Part shown: positions 2,339 through 29,704 of the stretch, piece by piece
How positions within the stretch are numbered: position 1 is the first letter of the stretch
How the letters are laid out: each line of letters begins with the position of its first letter
Virus record (IMG/VR): IMGVR_UViG_3300036651_000540
Coordinates: 1 to 34,612 of that record
Reading direction: 5' to 3' (one strand)
Length of the DNA stretch: 34,612 nucleotides
Origin: a virus
The notes under the pieces: generated by a model
What the model was told of the DNA's origin: nothing
What the model saw: the letters and a program-made list of their open reading frames with translations, nothing else
Database searches by the model: none
Made by a program: the position numbers and the translations under genes

Positions 2339-3868
2339 TTATTGAACGTTGATCGATGCGAGTTCGATCTTTTGGACCGAGCCACCATCGGCATAGAAGA
2401 AAGTCATATCCGGCGAACCGCGAGCCACGCGCACTGCCGCGCCCGGATCAGCGATGTTCAGATACCAGCCGCGAGTGCTCACCACGTCTGCAATCTTCTT
2501 GCCCACCGATGCGTTGATGGATGCGATCTGATCGCTGCCCAGCGTGACGCCTGCGCGGATCGCACCGAAGTTCAGCGCTGCGGCGATTGGATCGGCCAGA
2601 GATGATTCGATTTGCGAGTAGCCGAAGTTGTTGTACGGGATCGTGCCAGCGCCGGTCATCAGTACCATCAACGACTGCTGGAAGGCCGAGTTCATCCAGA
2701 TTTGGTTGTAGTAGCTGTCGGCCCATTTGAATGCGCCGCTGATCTGCCCAGGCTGCATGAAGCGGAACTGCTGCGCCGAGGTGGCATATGCGCCGTAGAA
2801 GTTGTAGCCGTTTGCAATCAGGGTATCGCCTGCGGTGGCGTCCATGACGGAAGGCGTCAGGCCACCTTGCGAGCGGAAGGCGAACGTTTGGCGACCGTTG
2901 GTAGTGGTGAAGTCCAGCGATGCAGCAATGCCCATGGCGAAGGCAGCGAGAGGCCGCACGATGCTTGCCAGCGATACGCCGAGCGCGGCAGCGACGGAAG
3001 CGTCACCAGTTACAGGCAGCGAACCGGAAAGTCCGACCGCCGCAACGCGTGCGCCGAAACTGGTCGTATTGCCCTGCACGAGCGCGTTGGGGTCGGTATC
3101 CCAGGCGACGTATGCAAACCGGTTGTTCTGCTGGCTGGTCCACGTAGCGAAGGCGATTTTCTCGTCGGTGGTCGGCTCAAAAGTGGTCATGAACGAAGCC
3201 CAGTTCAGGGCGCGAGCGGTCACGGCCAGTAGGGCAGGGGCCGGGGTCATCGCGGCGGAACCGGACGACAGTTGCGCGGCGGTGGCGGCGGTCAGGCGCA
3301 GGGCAGTAGCGAGCGCACCCGTGCCATACGAAACCAGACTCGTAGCGCCCGTGGTAGGCGATGCGAACACGAACGCTTGACGTTGCGCGTCGTAGGTAAC
3401 GACAGGTGCGCCGCCGCCCGTGAAGGCCGCCTGAATGATCGACGCTGCGTTGCTGAAACTGGTCGCGGTGGACAGGTTGATTGCCGTCGAGGTCTTGGGG
3501 GTGCTGTCAACCGAAACGGTCAGCGTGCCGGATGCAATGCCGGTGATGGTGGTCAGCGGCTCGCCCGCGAACGAACCCGAGCGCAGGTAACCAGCAACCG
3601 GCGCGGAGGCGTATTGCGAGAACAGCAGCGCGCCCGGTTTGGCGGTCGAGTTGTCGTAGCCCGCGAAGTACACGGCGGACAGGTTGTATTCGTCGGAGGT
3701 ATCACCGAAAAACTTGGCAACGTCAGCCGGGGAGGCGAACGACTGCACCGAGCCAATCGGGACGGCGGTATTGTTGGTCAGGGTCAGGCCCGACAAAGCC
3801 ACGGCTGCGCCACCAGCGGTAAGAACGCCGGGGAATACAGCAACGAGCTTGGATGCTGGAATGGTCAT
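2339..3868 (-). CDS. Tail sheath-like protein (DUF3383 family)
   Basis: A 509-aa protein with the DUF3383 layout: N-terminal 'VFPGVLTAGGAAVALSGL' , an early 'DVAKFFGDTSDEYNLSAVYFAGYDNS' motif in which the phage sheath signature (VxxFFG...E...A..YF) is clear, a variable Ig-like middle, 'YVAWDTDPNA' and a conserved C-terminal half with 'YNFYGAYATSAQQFRFMQPGQISG' and 'MNSAFQQSLMVLM'. The family is regarded as the contractile sheath of a group of myophages, so this gene is the main evidence for a contractile tail. The ATG follows AAGGTG by about six bases. Confidence 0.85.
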   Translation of the reverse strand: MTIPASKLVAVFPGVLTAGGAAVALSGLTLTNNTAVPIGSVQSFASPADVAKFFGDTSDEYNLSAVYFAGYDNSTAKPGALLFSQYASAPVAGYLRSGSFAGEPLTTITGIASGTLTVSVDSTPKTSTAINLSTATSFSNAASIIQAAFTGGGAPVVTYDAQRQAFVFASPTTGATSLVSYGTGALATALRLTAATAAQLSSGSAAMTPAPALLAVTARALNWASFMTTFEPTTDEKIAFATWTSQQNNRFAYVAWDTDPNALVQGNTTSFGARVAAVGLSGSLPVTGDASVAAALGVSLASIVRPLAAFAMGIAASLDFTTTNGRQTFAFRSQGGLTPSVMDATAGDTLIANGYNFYGAYATSAQQFRFMQPGQISGAFKWADSYYNQIWMNSAFQQSLMVLMTGAGTIPYNNFGYSQIESSLADPIAAALNFGAIRAGVTLGSDQIASINASVGKKIADVVSTRGWYLNIADPGAAVRVARGSPDMTFFYADGGSVQKIELASINVQ

Positions 3869-4791: not shown

Positions 4792-5315
4792 TCGTCATCC
4801 CCCACTACGCTCGTCAGCGTGGCAATCATCAGCCCGGTATCGTGCAAGGGCTGCGTGCGCGAACTGCCTTCCTCGCCTTCCTTGACGGCCTGAGCCGCCG
4901 CGCCAACCATCGTGCCGTTGACCTTAAAGCTTGAATCTTCGTCTTTCCACTTGCGCAGCATGAGAGTGATAGGGGAGAGCTTGAGGAAATCGCCGCTTGC
5001 AAGAACCGTGCGGATATCACCCGCTGCCTTTTGCCCCATGATTTCTAATACTTGCTCCGCAGTTACTGCACCGCGCACAACTGCTTTTGCGCCCTTGATA
5101 AATTGCTCCGTCCACTCTTCGCGCTTTGCCTCAACAGTGGGGCGAATAAACGGGCGAGCGGGAATGCTTGCGCCGGGTGCGCCCATTTCCTGAATGATGG
5201 CAACCTCTGCAACCTGCTTGCCATCGGGATAGCGCGCCGTCTCAAACCAGCCCACCTTGGCCTGACGCCCCTCAAATGCAGCCAGTCGCTTTGCCAGTTC
5301 ATCCATGGCGCTCAT
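4788..5315 (-). CDS. HK97 gp10-like / virion morphogenesis protein
   Basis: A 175-aa protein. Residues about 10-60 run 'RQAKVGWFETARYPDGKQVAEVAIIQEMGAPGASIPARPFIRPTV', the typical signature of gp10-like and Mu gpG-like head-closure or tail-completion proteins (isotropic E.G....IPARPF.RP). The start ATG at 5315 shares one base with the TGA of the DUF4054 gene (TGATG). It probably acts at the head-tail joint. Confidence 0.7.
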   Translation of the reverse strand: MSAMDELAKRLAAFEGRQAKVGWFETARYPDGKQVAEVAIIQEMGAPGASIPARPFIRPTVEAKREEWTEQFIKGAKAVVRGAVTAEQVLEIMGQKAAGDIRTVLASGDFLKLSPITLMLRKWKDEDSSFKVNGTMVGAAAQAVKEGEEGSSRTQPLHDTGLMIATLTSVVGDDE

Positions 5316-14197: not shown

Positions 14198-14272
14198 GTC
14201 CACAGGCAGGAGTCGAACCTGCGCGCACGAGTTATTAATTCGCCGCTCTAACCACCTGAGCTGTACTGTAGA
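14198..14272 (-). tRNA. tRNA-like gene, possible anticodon AAT
   Basis: Acceptor TCTACAG pairs with CTGTGGA, D-arm GCTC-AGGTGGTTA-GAGC and T-arm GCAGG-TTCGACT-CCTGC are perfect. The anticodon arm GCGAA-TTAATAA-CTCGT has an A-C mismatch at its top and would give AAT (Ile), a rare bacterial anticodon. Four bases instead of two join acceptor and D-stem, and CCA is not encoded. The arm resembles a tRNA-Asn arm with a changed anticodon. Confidence 0.55.
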
Positions 14273-26848: not shown

Positions 26849-27619
26849 CTAGCTCGCAAATGGGTCATCAAATTTTGGCGCGTTACCGCCAAGGTTGTTC
26901 ATCGAAGGTCTTGCAGGTGCCTTGGGGGCTGCGCGGTTCACGCTCAACTGGTCCCACTTCTCCCGCAGCTTGGAGGGCGAAAGAATGTTCCTGCACCAGA
27001 ACGTGTCTTTCGTGGCCCACTGCAGCAACTCGCAGATTTCGTGGTGCGTCCGCTTGTCCACCTCCCGCATCAGCCTTACATCGTCACCCCATGTGTTCCA
27101 GTTCGGAGGCTTGGCAGTCGGCAGGACGTTGAGGATTTGCCCGTACAGCCATCTTGCACACTTCTCATCCTCGTCCGAATGACGCCGGGTTTTTCGGCGC
27201 TCTTCGGACTCGTCTTTGGTTCTTGGTTCTTGGTTCTTGGTTAGTGGTTTATGGTTAGGTGGCGGTTCGTCCACGTCTGGTGCACGGTTCGTGCTCTTTT
27301 TCTTACGATTCGCCTCCCTTTCGATAGCGATTCGTTGATTGACCTCTGCTTTTTTGTGGTAGTCCTGTAGGTCTTCTTCGATCCGACTTTGAACATAAAT
27401 GCCATCACGGAGCGTGAAAAACTTCTTCAAAACGAACTCTACGGCCTCTATCTCTGCCGACGAAGACGCCCACGTCCATTCAATAGCCTCTTCCATCGTG
27501 GGAAATCGCTCACGGTCGTAGCACGCATCAATCAAGAGCGTGTACGAACCGTGCTGCAACATGGATAAGCGACCGGCCTTTTTCGCATAGTCACCAATGT
27601 TTCGTTTGTAGTAATGCAT
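26849..27619 (-). CDS. Replication initiator-like protein (DUF1376)
   Basis: The ATG at 27619 (MHYYKRNIGDYAKKAGRL) with GGAGCGGAA upstream is preferred over a TTG at 27640; 256 aa. Residues 1-95 are the DUF1376 domain ('SYTLLIDACYDRERFPT', 'IEAVEFVLKKFF'). A basic, Pro/Asn-rich linker encoded by heptamer repeats follows, then a C-terminal domain with 'WNTWGDDVRLMREVDKRTHHEICELLQWATKDTFW'. By neighbours (helicase loader directly behind) it acts at the origin, like lambda O in role. Confidence 0.75.
   Translation of the reverse strand: MHYYKRNIGDYAKKAGRLSMLQHGSYTLLIDACYDRERFPTMEEAIEWTWASSSAEIEAVEFVLKKFFTLRDGIYVQSRIEEDLQDYHKKAEVNQRIAIEREANRKKKSTNRAPDVDEPPPNHKPLTKNQEPRTKDESEERRKTRRHSDEDEKCARWLYGQILNVLPTAKPPNWNTWGDDVRLMREVDKRTHHEICELLQWATKDTFWCRNILSPSKLREKWDQLSVNRAAPKAPARPSMNNLGGNAPKFDDPFAS
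27216..27257 (+). repeat. Six tandem heptamers (TTGGTTC type), possible origin iterons
   Basis: Units TTGGTTC x3, TTGGTTA, GTGGTTT, ATGGTTA at an exact 7-base period, inside the initiator-like gene. Lambda-type initiator genes carry origin iterons at the same relative place. Confidence 0.7.
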
Positions 27620-27636
27620 TTCCGCTCCGAGACGAA

Positions 27637-28434
27637 TCAAATCCCGCTTGATGCGATGAGTTCGCTTAAATCAATTTTCCCGATGTTCTCGATGAACTTG
27701 GAAATGTCGCCAGAATGGCAACCGATGGCTGCGCCCTTAATCAACTCGGAAATCGCAAGATCGCGCTTGCTCGGGCCGGCCTTCTTCTTGATGATCTTGG
27801 CGGTAACCTTCTTGCCGCCAGATTCCTTCTTGAGTTCGGTGATTACCTTGCCGGTCTTGGTGCCGTGCTGCCTGAGAAGCTTTGCTGCCACCGTGCCGGA
27901 AATGTTCCCGGCGTTGATGTGGTCCTTTACATCGGTGTTTGCCTCTTGCAGCGCGAGGCACATTTTGATGTGGCCTACCGATAGGCCGCAGCGGTCCGCG
28001 ATCTTCTTTTCGTCCCAGCCCAAGCGCAGCAAGGATTGATAGTCGCGGCCCTGCTCGTGTGGAGGGATGCCGTTCTCATGAGCCGTGGTGATCTTGTGGC
28101 AGATGGCATCACCGTCATCGCCCCGGAACTGGATAGCGGACAGGTGCGGGATTTCGACGCCCTCGGCAATCAGTTCACGGGTGGCGATAAGGCGGTGTTC
28201 GCCATCGACCATCACGATACGGCCCACATCAACGCGCACGAAGATGGGAGGGATGATCGCGCCGTTACGCATCGAAATCTTGAACGACTCCACGCGATCA
28301 CGGTTAATCGGGCGATTGAACCCTGGCTCGACTTCGATCAAATGCGGCGCGACCTTGAATGCAGTCTCTTTGCCGATTTCTTCGCCGTGGATTTTCTTCT
28401 CAGCGGCTACTTTAAGGGATACAAACTTTTCCAT
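27637..28434 (-). CDS. ParB/Srx-fold DNA-binding protein
   Basis: Start ATG at 28434 (MEKFVSLKVAAEKK) after AAAGGATTG; 265 aa. The ParB N-terminal fold is shown by 'NRDRVESFKISMRNGAIIPPIFVRVD' and the conserved DGEHR box at 77-81. A KorB-like helix-turn-helix follows ('DYQSLLRLGWDEKKIADRCGLSVGHIKMCLAL'), then a lysine-rich linker and short C-terminal helix. No ParA is nearby, so a regulatory or replication role is more likely than partition. Confidence 0.8.
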   Translation of the reverse strand: MEKFVSLKVAAEKKIHGEEIGKETAFKVAPHLIEVEPGFNRPINRDRVESFKISMRNGAIIPPIFVRVDVGRIVMVDGEHRLIATRELIAEGVEIPHLSAIQFRGDDGDAICHKITTAHENGIPPHEQGRDYQSLLRLGWDEKKIADRCGLSVGHIKMCLALQEANTDVKDHINAGNISGTVAAKLLRQHGTKTGKVITELKKESGGKKVTAKIIKKKAGPSKRDLAISELIKGAAIGCHSGDISKFIENIGKIDLSELIASSGI

Positions 28435-28609
28435 GCGACAATCCTTTAGGCTGCACGCTAAACCGGGTCGCATTCCCTAGACAAGACGGCGAGCGCCATT
28501 GATGGGTCCGGTAAAACGTGCAGTCTGAAAGATTCATGTTGAAATTCTTGTCTAAATAGGCCGCGACAGCCTGAGCTTTTATTGTAGGTCAATTCCTACC
28601 TTGCCGCAA
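28435..28609 (-). promoter_or_regulatory. Promoter and structured leader of the ParB-like gene
   Basis: Promoter on the minus strand: TTGCGG (28604-28609), 17-base spacer, TACAAT (28581-28586). The leader then holds two interleaved inverted repeats: CTGCACG (28451-28457) with CGTGCAG (28517-28523), and TAGACAAGA (28478-28486) with TCTTGTCTA (28546-28554). Confidence 0.65.
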
Positions 28610-29065
28610 TTAAAGATTTATTCTCTCAACTTCCTCGGGGAAAGTTTTCGATAGCTGTGGCGGTGAGACAACAACGGTCAGAGGCAATGCCCATGCTGCG
28701 AGGCGCTGGCGGCGCTTTGCCATGACTTCTCGCTGGCGCTGCTCGTAGGCTGCGCGAATCTCTGCGCGGCGTCCGGGGTGGCGCTCATTGAAACGGCGCT
28801 GGTAGTCGGCCTCGTCAAGTGCTGGCGGGCGGGGCCGGTCTTTCTCCAATCCCGTGACCTTGAGCTTGTAGAGCGGCCGGCGAGCGCCGTTGCCCTTCTG
28901 TCTTCGCCACTGGCTGATGTAGAGCAAGCCCTCGTCGTGCAGGATCAGAAGCCATTTGCCCGCGCTAGAAACGGCCACGCCAGCGCGCTTTGCCACTTGG
29001 CTACGGATGCCAGGGAGCGCCGCTAAAACCTTGTCACGGTGCGATGGGCGGCCAATCTTAGCCAT
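28610..29065 (-). CDS. Winged-helix DNA-binding protein, 151 aa
   Basis: Start ATG at 29065 (MAKIGRPSHRDKVLAAL) with GGGAG upstream. Residues about 10-60 form a helix-turn-helix ('AALPGIRSQVAKRAGVAVSSAGKWLLILHDEGLLYISQW') and the rest is basic and arginine-rich, ending 'FPEEVERINL'. It lies upstream of the ParB-like gene, with its stop next to that gene's promoter. Probably a phage regulator or replication accessory. Confidence 0.75.
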   Translation of the reverse strand: MAKIGRPSHRDKVLAALPGIRSQVAKRAGVAVSSAGKWLLILHDEGLLYISQWRRQKGNGARRPLYKLKVTGLEKDRPRPPALDEADYQRRFNERHPGRRAEIRAAYEQRQREVMAKRRQRLAAWALPLTVVVSPPQLSKTFPEEVERINL

Positions 29066-29168
29066 TGGAGGCTCCCGCAACGCGCCAGATCACAGCCGCC
29101 CACAGCGCGCAGCACAGACCCAGCGCAATGACGACTTCCCACTTGATACGTTTAGCAAGGTTCAGCAT
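29058..29168 (-). CDS. 36-aa single-helix membrane peptide
   Basis: ATG at 29168 with AGGATTTACAA upstream, overlapping neighbours on both sides. A basic N-terminus (NLAKRIKWE) and one hydrophobic helix (VVIALGLCCALWAAVIW). Short phage membrane peptide of unknown role. Confidence 0.55.
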   Translation of the reverse strand: MLNLAKRIKWEVVIALGLCCALWAAVIWRVAGASNG

Positions 29169-29350
29169 TTGTAAATCCTGTTGAAAATGGTGAGGATGAG
29201 TTCGCATTGGCGCTGGGTCAGGTGGTAAGGCTTGAGGCCGTGGCAGGACTGCGTGTGCGCTACATGCACCGCCTCTCGCTCCCACGAGGCCATACCTGTC
29301 CGCTCGTTGCTCAAGGCCCGTACCATTTGGCTAACCGAAACTGCGCTCAT
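29162..29350 (-). CDS. Hypothetical protein, 62 aa
   Basis: AGGGAGTTCGAC precedes the ATG. It reads MSAVSVSQMVRALSNERTGM and has a helical C-terminus 'QRQCELILTIFNRIYKC'. It may be a small DNA-binding helical peptide; no family is recognised. Confidence 0.6.
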   Translation of the reverse strand: MSAVSVSQMVRALSNERTGMASWEREAVHVAHTQSCHGLKPYHLTQRQCELILTIFNRIYKC

Positions 29351-29399
29351 GTCGAACTCCCTAGAAAGTTATGTTGCCTGATGGAATACTAGCGCAAAT

Positions 29400-29582
29400 T
29401 CAGCCTTTTTCAATAATATGCGCCAACGGCATGTACTCGATGCAGGCGCGCAACTCGCTGAACGGCAGCGGGTGAGGCATGTTCAACAGCGTCATCACTG
29501 CGTCATGCACCAGCTTGGCAACCTGCAAATCTCGCTCGGTGGCGGTGCCAAGATTGGCACTTTTGGGAATGGTGAGGTTCAT
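29400..29582 (-). CDS. Hypothetical protein, 60 aa, first gene of the replication unit
   Basis: Start ATG at 29582 (MNLTIPKSANLGTATERDLQVAKLVH) with AAAGGAGAAAAGC upstream; the longer frame is rejected because it runs into the promoter. It has the phage-type 'ERDLQVAKLVHDAVMTLLNMPHPLPFSELRACIEYMPLA' helical region. It lies 37 bases downstream of promoter module P3. Confidence 0.65.
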   Translation of the reverse strand: MNLTIPKSANLGTATERDLQVAKLVHDAVMTLLNMPHPLPFSELRACIEYMPLAHIIEKG

Positions 29583-29619
29583 GCTTTTCTCCTTTGTGGT
29601 TTGCGCTGCTGACGTAAGA

Positions 29620-29666
29620 ACTATAGCACCGCGATTTACGAAACGCAATCATATTATGCAAATAAA
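29620..29666 (-). promoter_or_regulatory. Early promoter module P3
   Basis: Minus strand: TTTATTT (29660-29666), TTGCGT (29643-29648), 17-base spacer, TATAGT (29620-29625), then TCTTACGTCA. It is the third copy of the module found at 17027-17073 and 33620-33666, here driving the replication genes. Confidence 0.75.
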
Positions 29667-29676
29667 TCGCGCAGTT

Positions 29677-29704
29677 GTAAAAAAGCCCGCTCAGTGGCGG
29701 GCTT
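29677..29704 (-). terminator. Intrinsic terminator after the repressor operon
   Basis: 8-bp stem AAGCCCGC / GCGGGCTT with a 6-base loop; TTTTTTAC follows on the minus strand. It ends the leftward transcript from the repressor promoter just before promoter module P3. Confidence 0.85.

Follow-up and report, generated by a model that had tools for sequence, protein, structure and literature searches.

The lambda cIII mRNA, an early phage transcript, can adopt either of two folds, which expose the Shine-Dalgarno (SD) sequence differently. The c4 antisense RNA is a phage RNA that pairs with the SD region of its own operon and has a separate target at the SD, while HK022 put and lambda nut are phage antitermination RNAs that act on RNA polymerase so that it passes terminators. 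To our knowledge, there are few known cases in which two competing helices both covary, one of which is the hok mRNA. In the MS2 maturation-gene leader, a transient fold permits translation before the stable structure of the start region has formed, and in the hok and aapA3 toxin mRNAs, successive alternative helices (metastable hairpins) govern hiding of the SD (PMC6733600). The manA and wcaG motifs of cyanophages are RNA domains that phages carry in what may be leaders, with varying genes behind them (PMC2864571).

Here, we describe a leader element in a viral contig of 34,612 nt (IMG/VR record IMGVR_UViG_3300036651_000540; this whole stretch is referred to as the window). Among the titles and abstracts returned by literature searches, we found no description of the element; an unnamed motif in the supplement of a large survey is possible. 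Rfam 15 had no family at gathering score on the leader. At E values up to 10, the leader regions of the window and of the distantly related contig L009 matched only rteR, opuB, and HCV_SLVII, with E values of 4.3 to 7.5 and far below gathering scores.

Results

Interleaved repeats in the leader of a ParB-like gene

A sequence-only reading of this DNA had pointed to two perfect inverted repeats of 7 and 9 bp in the leader of a ParB-like gene, interleaved as A-B-A'-B', and had proposed that they form an RNA pseudoknot or serve as paired operators, perhaps for the ParB-like protein as an autoregulator. Both repeats are present, at 28451-28457/28517-28523 (CTGCACG/CGTGCAG) and 28478-28486/28546-28554 (TAGACAAGA/TCTTGTCTA), and they are interleaved as described. 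Taken alone, these perfect repeats are at chance level. Counting perfect 9-mer inverted repeats with arm starts at most 110 nt apart, we found 27 in the window and 19 to 27 in five Markov sequences; the same count for 7-mers gave 280 and 266 to 327, respectively, and A-B-A'-B' arrangements of this kind numbered 3 in the window and 0 to 10 in six Markov sequences. Because their frequency equals that expected by chance, the perfect repeats were rejected as a signal in themselves.

A longer, imperfect repeat of 27 nt (28440-28466/28508-28534; 78% complementary) has the 7-bp repeat as its core and spans the ribosome-binding site of the ParB-like gene. Over the range of spacings covered, this longer repeat is the sole case in the window with at least 21 of 27 Watson-Crick matches, and no such case was present in five Markov sequences. 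The 9-bp repeat belongs to a longer interrupted stem, in which 28546-28567 pairs with 28467-28486. Each of the two perfect repeats forms the core of a longer helix; these helices, here called X and Y, are interleaved as well, and their arms follow each other in the 137-nt leader in the order X-Y-X'-Y' (Table 1). What raises them above chance is conservation and compensatory change, not the repeats themselves.

Table 1. Features of the leader region, in window coordinates
Feature	Coordinates	Strand	Basis or remark
Conserved RNA leader element, 137 nt	28440..28576	-	Reaches from just past the promoter-like site through the SD region
Helix X, 5' arm (outer GUCGCGGCC, inner UAGACAAGA)	28546..28567	-	Covariation
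Helix X, 3' arm	28467..28486	-	Base 28486 is shared with hairpin H, as its outer base
Helix Y, 5' arm, 27 nt, with anti-SD AAUCUUU	28508..28534	-	27-nt repeat and covariation
Helix Y, 3' arm, contains the SD	28440..28466	-	Y pairs counted in alignment A10
Small hairpin H (AUGGC-GCUC-GCCGU), within X as well as Y	28486..28499	-	Pair counts
SD (AAAGGA) of the ParB-like gene, within the Y 3' arm	28442..28447	-	Read in sequence
Promoter-like site (TTGCGG 28604-28609, 17 nt, TACAAT 28581-28586)	28581..28609	-	Weak, 8/12
Palindrome GTAGG-N6-CCTAC, overlaps the promoter-like site	28584..28599		Read in sequence
Upstream small gene, 150-156 aa	28610..29062	-	Protein relatives in L009 and L022
ParB-like gene	27637..28434	-	ATG at 28434; PF17762, E 7.7e-5; phrog_1033, E 7.4e-48
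Small ORF MNLSDC..., overlaps the start of the ParB-like gene	28412-28537	-	Read in sequence

The element in other viral contigs

We identified the element in four further distinct viral contigs, of which L022, L173, and L215 carry versions ~93% alike with that of the window and L009 carries a distant one. The L022 element is 92% identical over positions 35 to 181 of a 191-nt query, and its flanks are unlike those of the window. L022 was found using a pattern for the loop/hairpin region, and L173 and L215 were found using gapped patterns. Because portions of the element were prescribed by the patterns (the hairpin region; the outer X arms plus hairpin; parts of both Y arms), the agreement of L022, L173, and L215 in these parts is partly due to selection. 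L009 was reached through its upstream protein, a relative of that in the window, and not through RNA, and its leader is interleaved at the same place as in the window. A covariance model built from the four close elements and describing only Y and H (R1) finds L009 with 36 bits (E 9.6e-8, a rough value), the second-best match in L009 having 8.1 bits. The same model gives 169 to 172 bits on its four source sequences, by construction, and 27.4 to 33.2 bits on their reverse complements, because the palindromic hairpin resembles its own complement; the L009 score is not far above the latter values.

Identical copies were counted once (L002, L007, L008, and L157 as the twin contig of the window; L010, L025, and L034 together, L010 being the same as L009 over 268 nt). 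For the first pattern, L007 and L022 were kept out of 11 stretches, and 9 were dropped by reading; for the second, L007, L022, L025, and L034 were kept out of 17 (13 dropped). The third pattern contributed these four and L173 out of 61 (56 dropped), and the fourth contributed these five and L215 out of 8 (L216 and L217 dropped). A subsequent scan with R1 at E values up to 1 covered 82 sources, comprising the dropped viral loci plus L025 and L034, and only L025 and L034 matched. Stem score alone does not separate members of the family: L139, L156, and L090 scored 60 to 62, compared with 62 for the window and 55 for L022, and had no model match despite these high scores.

In genome-contig DNA, the pattern scan returned at least 118 stretches, and none of the 118 listed loci matched the model at E values up to 1. 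Model searches found no match in five genomes drawn from loci and none in 399 genomes belonging to the same order as G005 (source genome of L112; titled Ideonella paludis), the latter being weak evidence with eight candidates scored per listed genome. The replication regions of 12 phage records (L218-L229) had no model match at E values up to 5. By DNA similarity, phage records had no match to window positions 27600-29200 at an E value of 1e-5 and only short matches, with E values of 0.9 or more, to the leaders of the window and L009; E. coli genomes had no blastn match to the leader. Matches of 26 to 29 bp in Salmonella plasmids (E 0.04-0.1), located between umuD and parM in the two inspected, were taken as chance. 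The element is rare, with five distinct copies in IMG/VR by the patterns used. Since these patterns reach close members only, the family may be wider than the known five.

Genes around the element

The five contigs carry the element before four different genes. In the window, the ParB-like gene is followed by O-like or DUF1376 and DnaC-like genes. The next gene in L022 and L215 is the same kind of small open reading frame (ORF) of ~40 codons, behind which are a replication protein O relative (Phage_rep_O) and a DnaB helicase by Pfam in L022, and a replication protein O relative by tblastn and a DnaB helicase by reading in L215. L173 has another small ORF of ~40 codons, followed by a 274-amino-acid (aa) protein that matches phage replication proteins (tblastn) and a DnaB-like ORF (read), while in L009, the next gene encodes a 132-aa protein without a Pfam match.

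A related small gene lies just upstream of the element in the window, L009, and L022; other genes are at this place in L173 and L215. The window protein is about 51 to 52% identical to its L009 relative and 31% identical to its L022 relative (E 7e-10). It has no Pfam match at E values up to 1, and the helix-turn-helix matches of the L009 relative are all below Pfam cut-offs; based on these comparisons, the gene probably encodes a helix-turn-helix protein. The palindrome between this gene and the leader (Table 1) is a possible repressor operator. We also observed a different palindrome (TGACTCG...CGAGTCA) upstream of the leader in L022 and, in L009, a perfect inverted repeat of 8 bp (GCATAGTT/AACTATGC; positions 3504-3531) just before the leader, a candidate operator or extra hairpin. 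The promoter-like site of the window was not reported by a consensus promoter scan that needs 9/12 matches; promoter-like candidates were seen by eye at a like place in L022, L173, and L215.

Rfam matches in the window, L173, L215, and L022 were to tRNAs only and away from the leaders. L215 has three tRNA genes in a row at 642-880, and the window has a tRNA-Arg (tct) gene near the contig end (34346-34421) as well as a weak tRNA match of 32 bits on the minus strand (14202-14269), which was not reported by ARAGORN.

The element and ParB-like genes

We found the ParB-like protein encoded in five viral loci. One of these, L002, represents the window's own phage (identity of 100% over 10.6 kb); in the remaining four (L003-L006), the proteins are 44 to 75% identical, and the leaders are unlike that of the window. 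At E values up to 5, the leader model had no match in L003-L006 or in the ParB-like region of Curvibacter phage PCA1 (L013). In genome contigs, 588 stretches fit the ParB-like peptide patterns, and none was a relative. Four of the five distinct elements stand before genes other than the ParB-like gene. The sequence-only reading had set conservation in phages with the same gene as the test of its proposal; the repeats are conserved before other genes instead. On this distribution, with four other neighborhoods and no model match in L003-L006 and L013, we rejected the proposal that the repeats are an autoregulatory operator of the ParB-like protein.

An exception to the absence of the element near ParB-like relatives is an 18-base stretch of the leader 5' end (GGCT-GTCGCGGCCTATT), which matched the opposite strand of L003 with an E value of 0.008 in a six-sequence comparison. 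This match is ~330 nt upstream of the L003 ParB-like gene (upstream of position 5001), and the rest of the element is absent; it is perhaps a common terminator-like stretch or a chance match. By reading, the L003 ParB-like gene stands directly behind a promoter-like stretch that resembles window positions ~29590-29690. The 1.1 kb between, including the leader, are therefore an insertion in the window phage or a loss in L003. We note that in the window, the small upstream gene and the RNA leader (28450-29590) look like one module gained or lost.

The L003 relative starts with nearly the same bases (ATGGAAAAGTT) as the window gene, which backs the ATG in Table 1, and a longer ORF start at 28473 therefore falls within the leader. 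The longest ParB-like ORF does start at 28473, inside the RNA element, and automatic annotation may pick this wrong start.

Covariation in both helices

The sequence-only reading had suggested looking for compensatory changes in relatives, and we found them in both helices. Among the four close elements, 97.6% of 164 cells were paired, with two-sided changes in 4 pairs (3 in X) and 7 cells. In the five-sequence alignment (A10; 44 pairs), 98.2% of 220 cells were paired, and 18 of the 44 pairs and 23 of the 220 cells had two-sided changes, compared with means of 5.4 and 6.6, respectively, in shuffles, none of 500 being as high. Sliding the partners by 1 to 3 columns lowered pairing to 44.4% or less. 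Helix X alone, which is absent from R1, had two-sided changes in 7 of 16 pairs and 11 cells (98.8% of 80 cells paired). Helix Y (23 pairs) had 99.1% of cells paired and 10 pairs with two-sided changes, and hairpin H (5 pairs) had 92% of cells paired and one such pair. These counts are from five distinct sequences, four of them ~93% alike, and L009 contributes 16 of the 23 two-sided cells. Fitting of A10 was to Y and H, with the X pairs placed by hand on the alignment. An alignment that contains opposite-strand self matches (A9) was left out of the counts.

On the sense strand, there were 18 G-U cells compared with 10 wobbling on the other strand, and within variable pairs, 13 compared with 10, a modest margin. 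As a single sequence, the sense-strand window leader (151 nt) was predicted to fold modestly better than shuffles (z -1.73), and a shorter stretch of the opposite strand (121 nt) did better (z -3.25). Because single-sequence folds do not favor the sense strand, the strand was chosen mainly by gene direction, the SD, and L009. At the level of comparative sequence analysis, a two-helix RNA structure is well supported.

Folding of the leader and the SD

In all five contigs, the element ends on the SD (AAAGGATT or AAGGGAT), the distance from SD to ATG is 5 to 7 nt, and helix Y pairs the SD. Two alternative conserved helices, one of which pairs the SD, are one feature of a co-transcriptional SD switch of the MS2 or hok kind, and both are found here.

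In folding calculations, Y was predicted to dominate the full-length leader (mean pair probability, 0.90-0.96), with X absent. In prefixes of 112 to 120 nt, X was the predicted dominant helix in the four close elements (mean pair probability, 0.95-0.98); in L009, the corresponding values were 0.28 at nt 112 and 0.62 to 0.65 at nt 116 to 128, and in all five, Y was favored from nt 124 to 132 on, the calculations being at equilibrium and without pseudoknots or kinetics, such that mutual replacement of X and Y is built in and not a result. The predicted probability that the SD is unpaired was 0.17 to 0.18 at equilibrium and, with X enforced, 0.77 to 0.95 in four elements and 0.42 in L009. The calculated barrier along a nested path from X to Y is very high (16.9-25.8 kcal/mol); X could therefore persist for a long time, except if a pseudoknot gives Y a route of invasion. 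By our estimate, a linker of 11 to 17 nt cannot span full Y, and full X and the SD end of Y should therefore exclude each other.

The compensatory changes support the suggestion that the repeats are parts of RNA helices. A single static pseudoknot fares less well, as alternation of X and Y is likelier by the linker estimate.

Discussion

Based on these data, we lean toward reading the leader as a conserved, cis-acting, co-transcriptional ON-then-OFF translation switch of a phage early operon. The leader would be transcribed from the promoter-like site. During transcription, X and hairpin H would fold first, because the 3' arm of X is transcribed before that of Y; the SD at the leader 3' end would then be mostly free (partly free in L009), making X the presumed ON state. 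Once Y' is complete, the more stable Y would form and displace X, the SD would be paired with the upstream anti-SD arm, and translation would be repressed. In this way, the leader could switch or time the translation of the first gene, through kinetics alone or through a factor that holds X or H.

The covariation of both helices would also be accounted for if X and part of Y formed a stable pseudoknot to which a small ligand or a protein of phage or host origin binds, with binding blocking or freeing the SD and the factor, not kinetics, as the signal. Unpaired bases that are invariant in all five elements (e.g., CCC in columns 78-80, CU in the hairpin loop, and G at 108) fit such a site, and by estimate, the loops are long enough if only the outer 7 bp of Y form. 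Nevertheless, full X and the full 23-pair Y look sterically incompatible given the estimated linker, and among the immediate neighbors inspected, no gene adjoins all five elements; we consider this explanation unlikely, though it deserves to be kept in view. We give little credence to a transcription antitermination RNA of the HK022 put or lambda nut kind, with RNA polymerase as its target. Provided that the promoter-like site is genuine, the element would sit close to where an early phage transcript starts, and this, like its occurrence in unlike operons, would suit such an RNA, but an antiterminator does not need an element that ends on the SD and a helix that pairs the SD in all five cases. 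Slightly less credence still goes to an element that acts as DNA (paired operators or a replication origin), marks a boundary of module recombination, or is an RNA of the opposite strand. Replication genes do follow in the window, L022, L173, and L215, the element hardly differs between phages whose flanks are unlike, and the opposite strand folds well (z -3.25) and matches R1 with 27 to 33 bits. The excess of sense-strand G-U cells (18 compared with 10) argues against these options by a modest margin, as do the near-fixed distance to the SD in all five elements and the geometry of the arms, which are interleaved and 59 nt (X) and 41 nt (Y) apart, odd for operators.

The anti-SD arm sits in the loop of X in predicted folds of ~112- to 120-nt prefixes, from where a processed 5' piece could silence SD regions elsewhere as a trans-acting antisense RNA of the c4 kind, and c4 is among the RNAs listed for phages (PMC2864571). 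However, a search of the window, which is a fragment, for CGTGCAGCCTAAAGGATT with up to three mismatches returned only the two arms of the element itself, and the c4 model RF01695 had no match in the leader regions of the window and L009 at E values up to 10; we consider this reading very improbable. The least probable explanation, in our assessment, is that conservation reflects a leader peptide or small gene starting MNLSDC. That frame is open in the window, L173, and L215 and, in the latter two contigs, coincides with the frame of the next gene; yet, it is shifted by a 1-nt insertion in L022, L009 has no ATG there, and no consistent SD precedes the ATG by reading. Moreover, compensatory changes link the coding stretch to the 5' arm of X, which lies upstream of this ATG.

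A translation switch with alternating helices X and Y remains the reading we prefer. Whether the five elements represent something broader is a more tentative matter: it is conceivable, but falls short of probable, that they belong to an undescribed family of exchangeable phage RNA switches before the first genes of early operons, in which the folding pathway, with a transient and a final helix, is selected. Such a timer or sensor would let early genes, most of them for replication, be translated only from nascent transcripts or only under a condition that the X/H domain senses. If this is true, it would give DNA phages a further level of early control, in addition to repressors and antiterminators. 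Covariation in two competing helices is direct evolutionary evidence for selected alternative folds, perhaps for a folding pathway, and a small phage leader that appears portable between genes offers a compact, testable case.

Among known systems, lambda cIII mRNA is alike by description, with alternative folds that differ in SD exposure. The leader differs from c4 RNA (RF01695), which had no model match in the window and L009 leaders, in that the pairing is within one element. It shares with manA and wcaG (PMC2864571) the placement of a phage RNA domain before changing genes; manA and wcaG are other families, and there is no Rfam match here. The remaining likenesses are of kind and concern the working principle. 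As in the MS2 maturation-gene leader (PMC6733600), folding over the start region would be delayed, although MS2 is an RNA phage, whereas the present leader is found in DNA phages and before different genes. As in hok and aapA3 (PMC6733600), successive alternative helices would control the SD; in those mRNAs, they prevent translation of a toxin, and remote or 3' portions of the mRNA take part, whereas in the present case, no toxin is involved and both helices are contained in the 5' leader.
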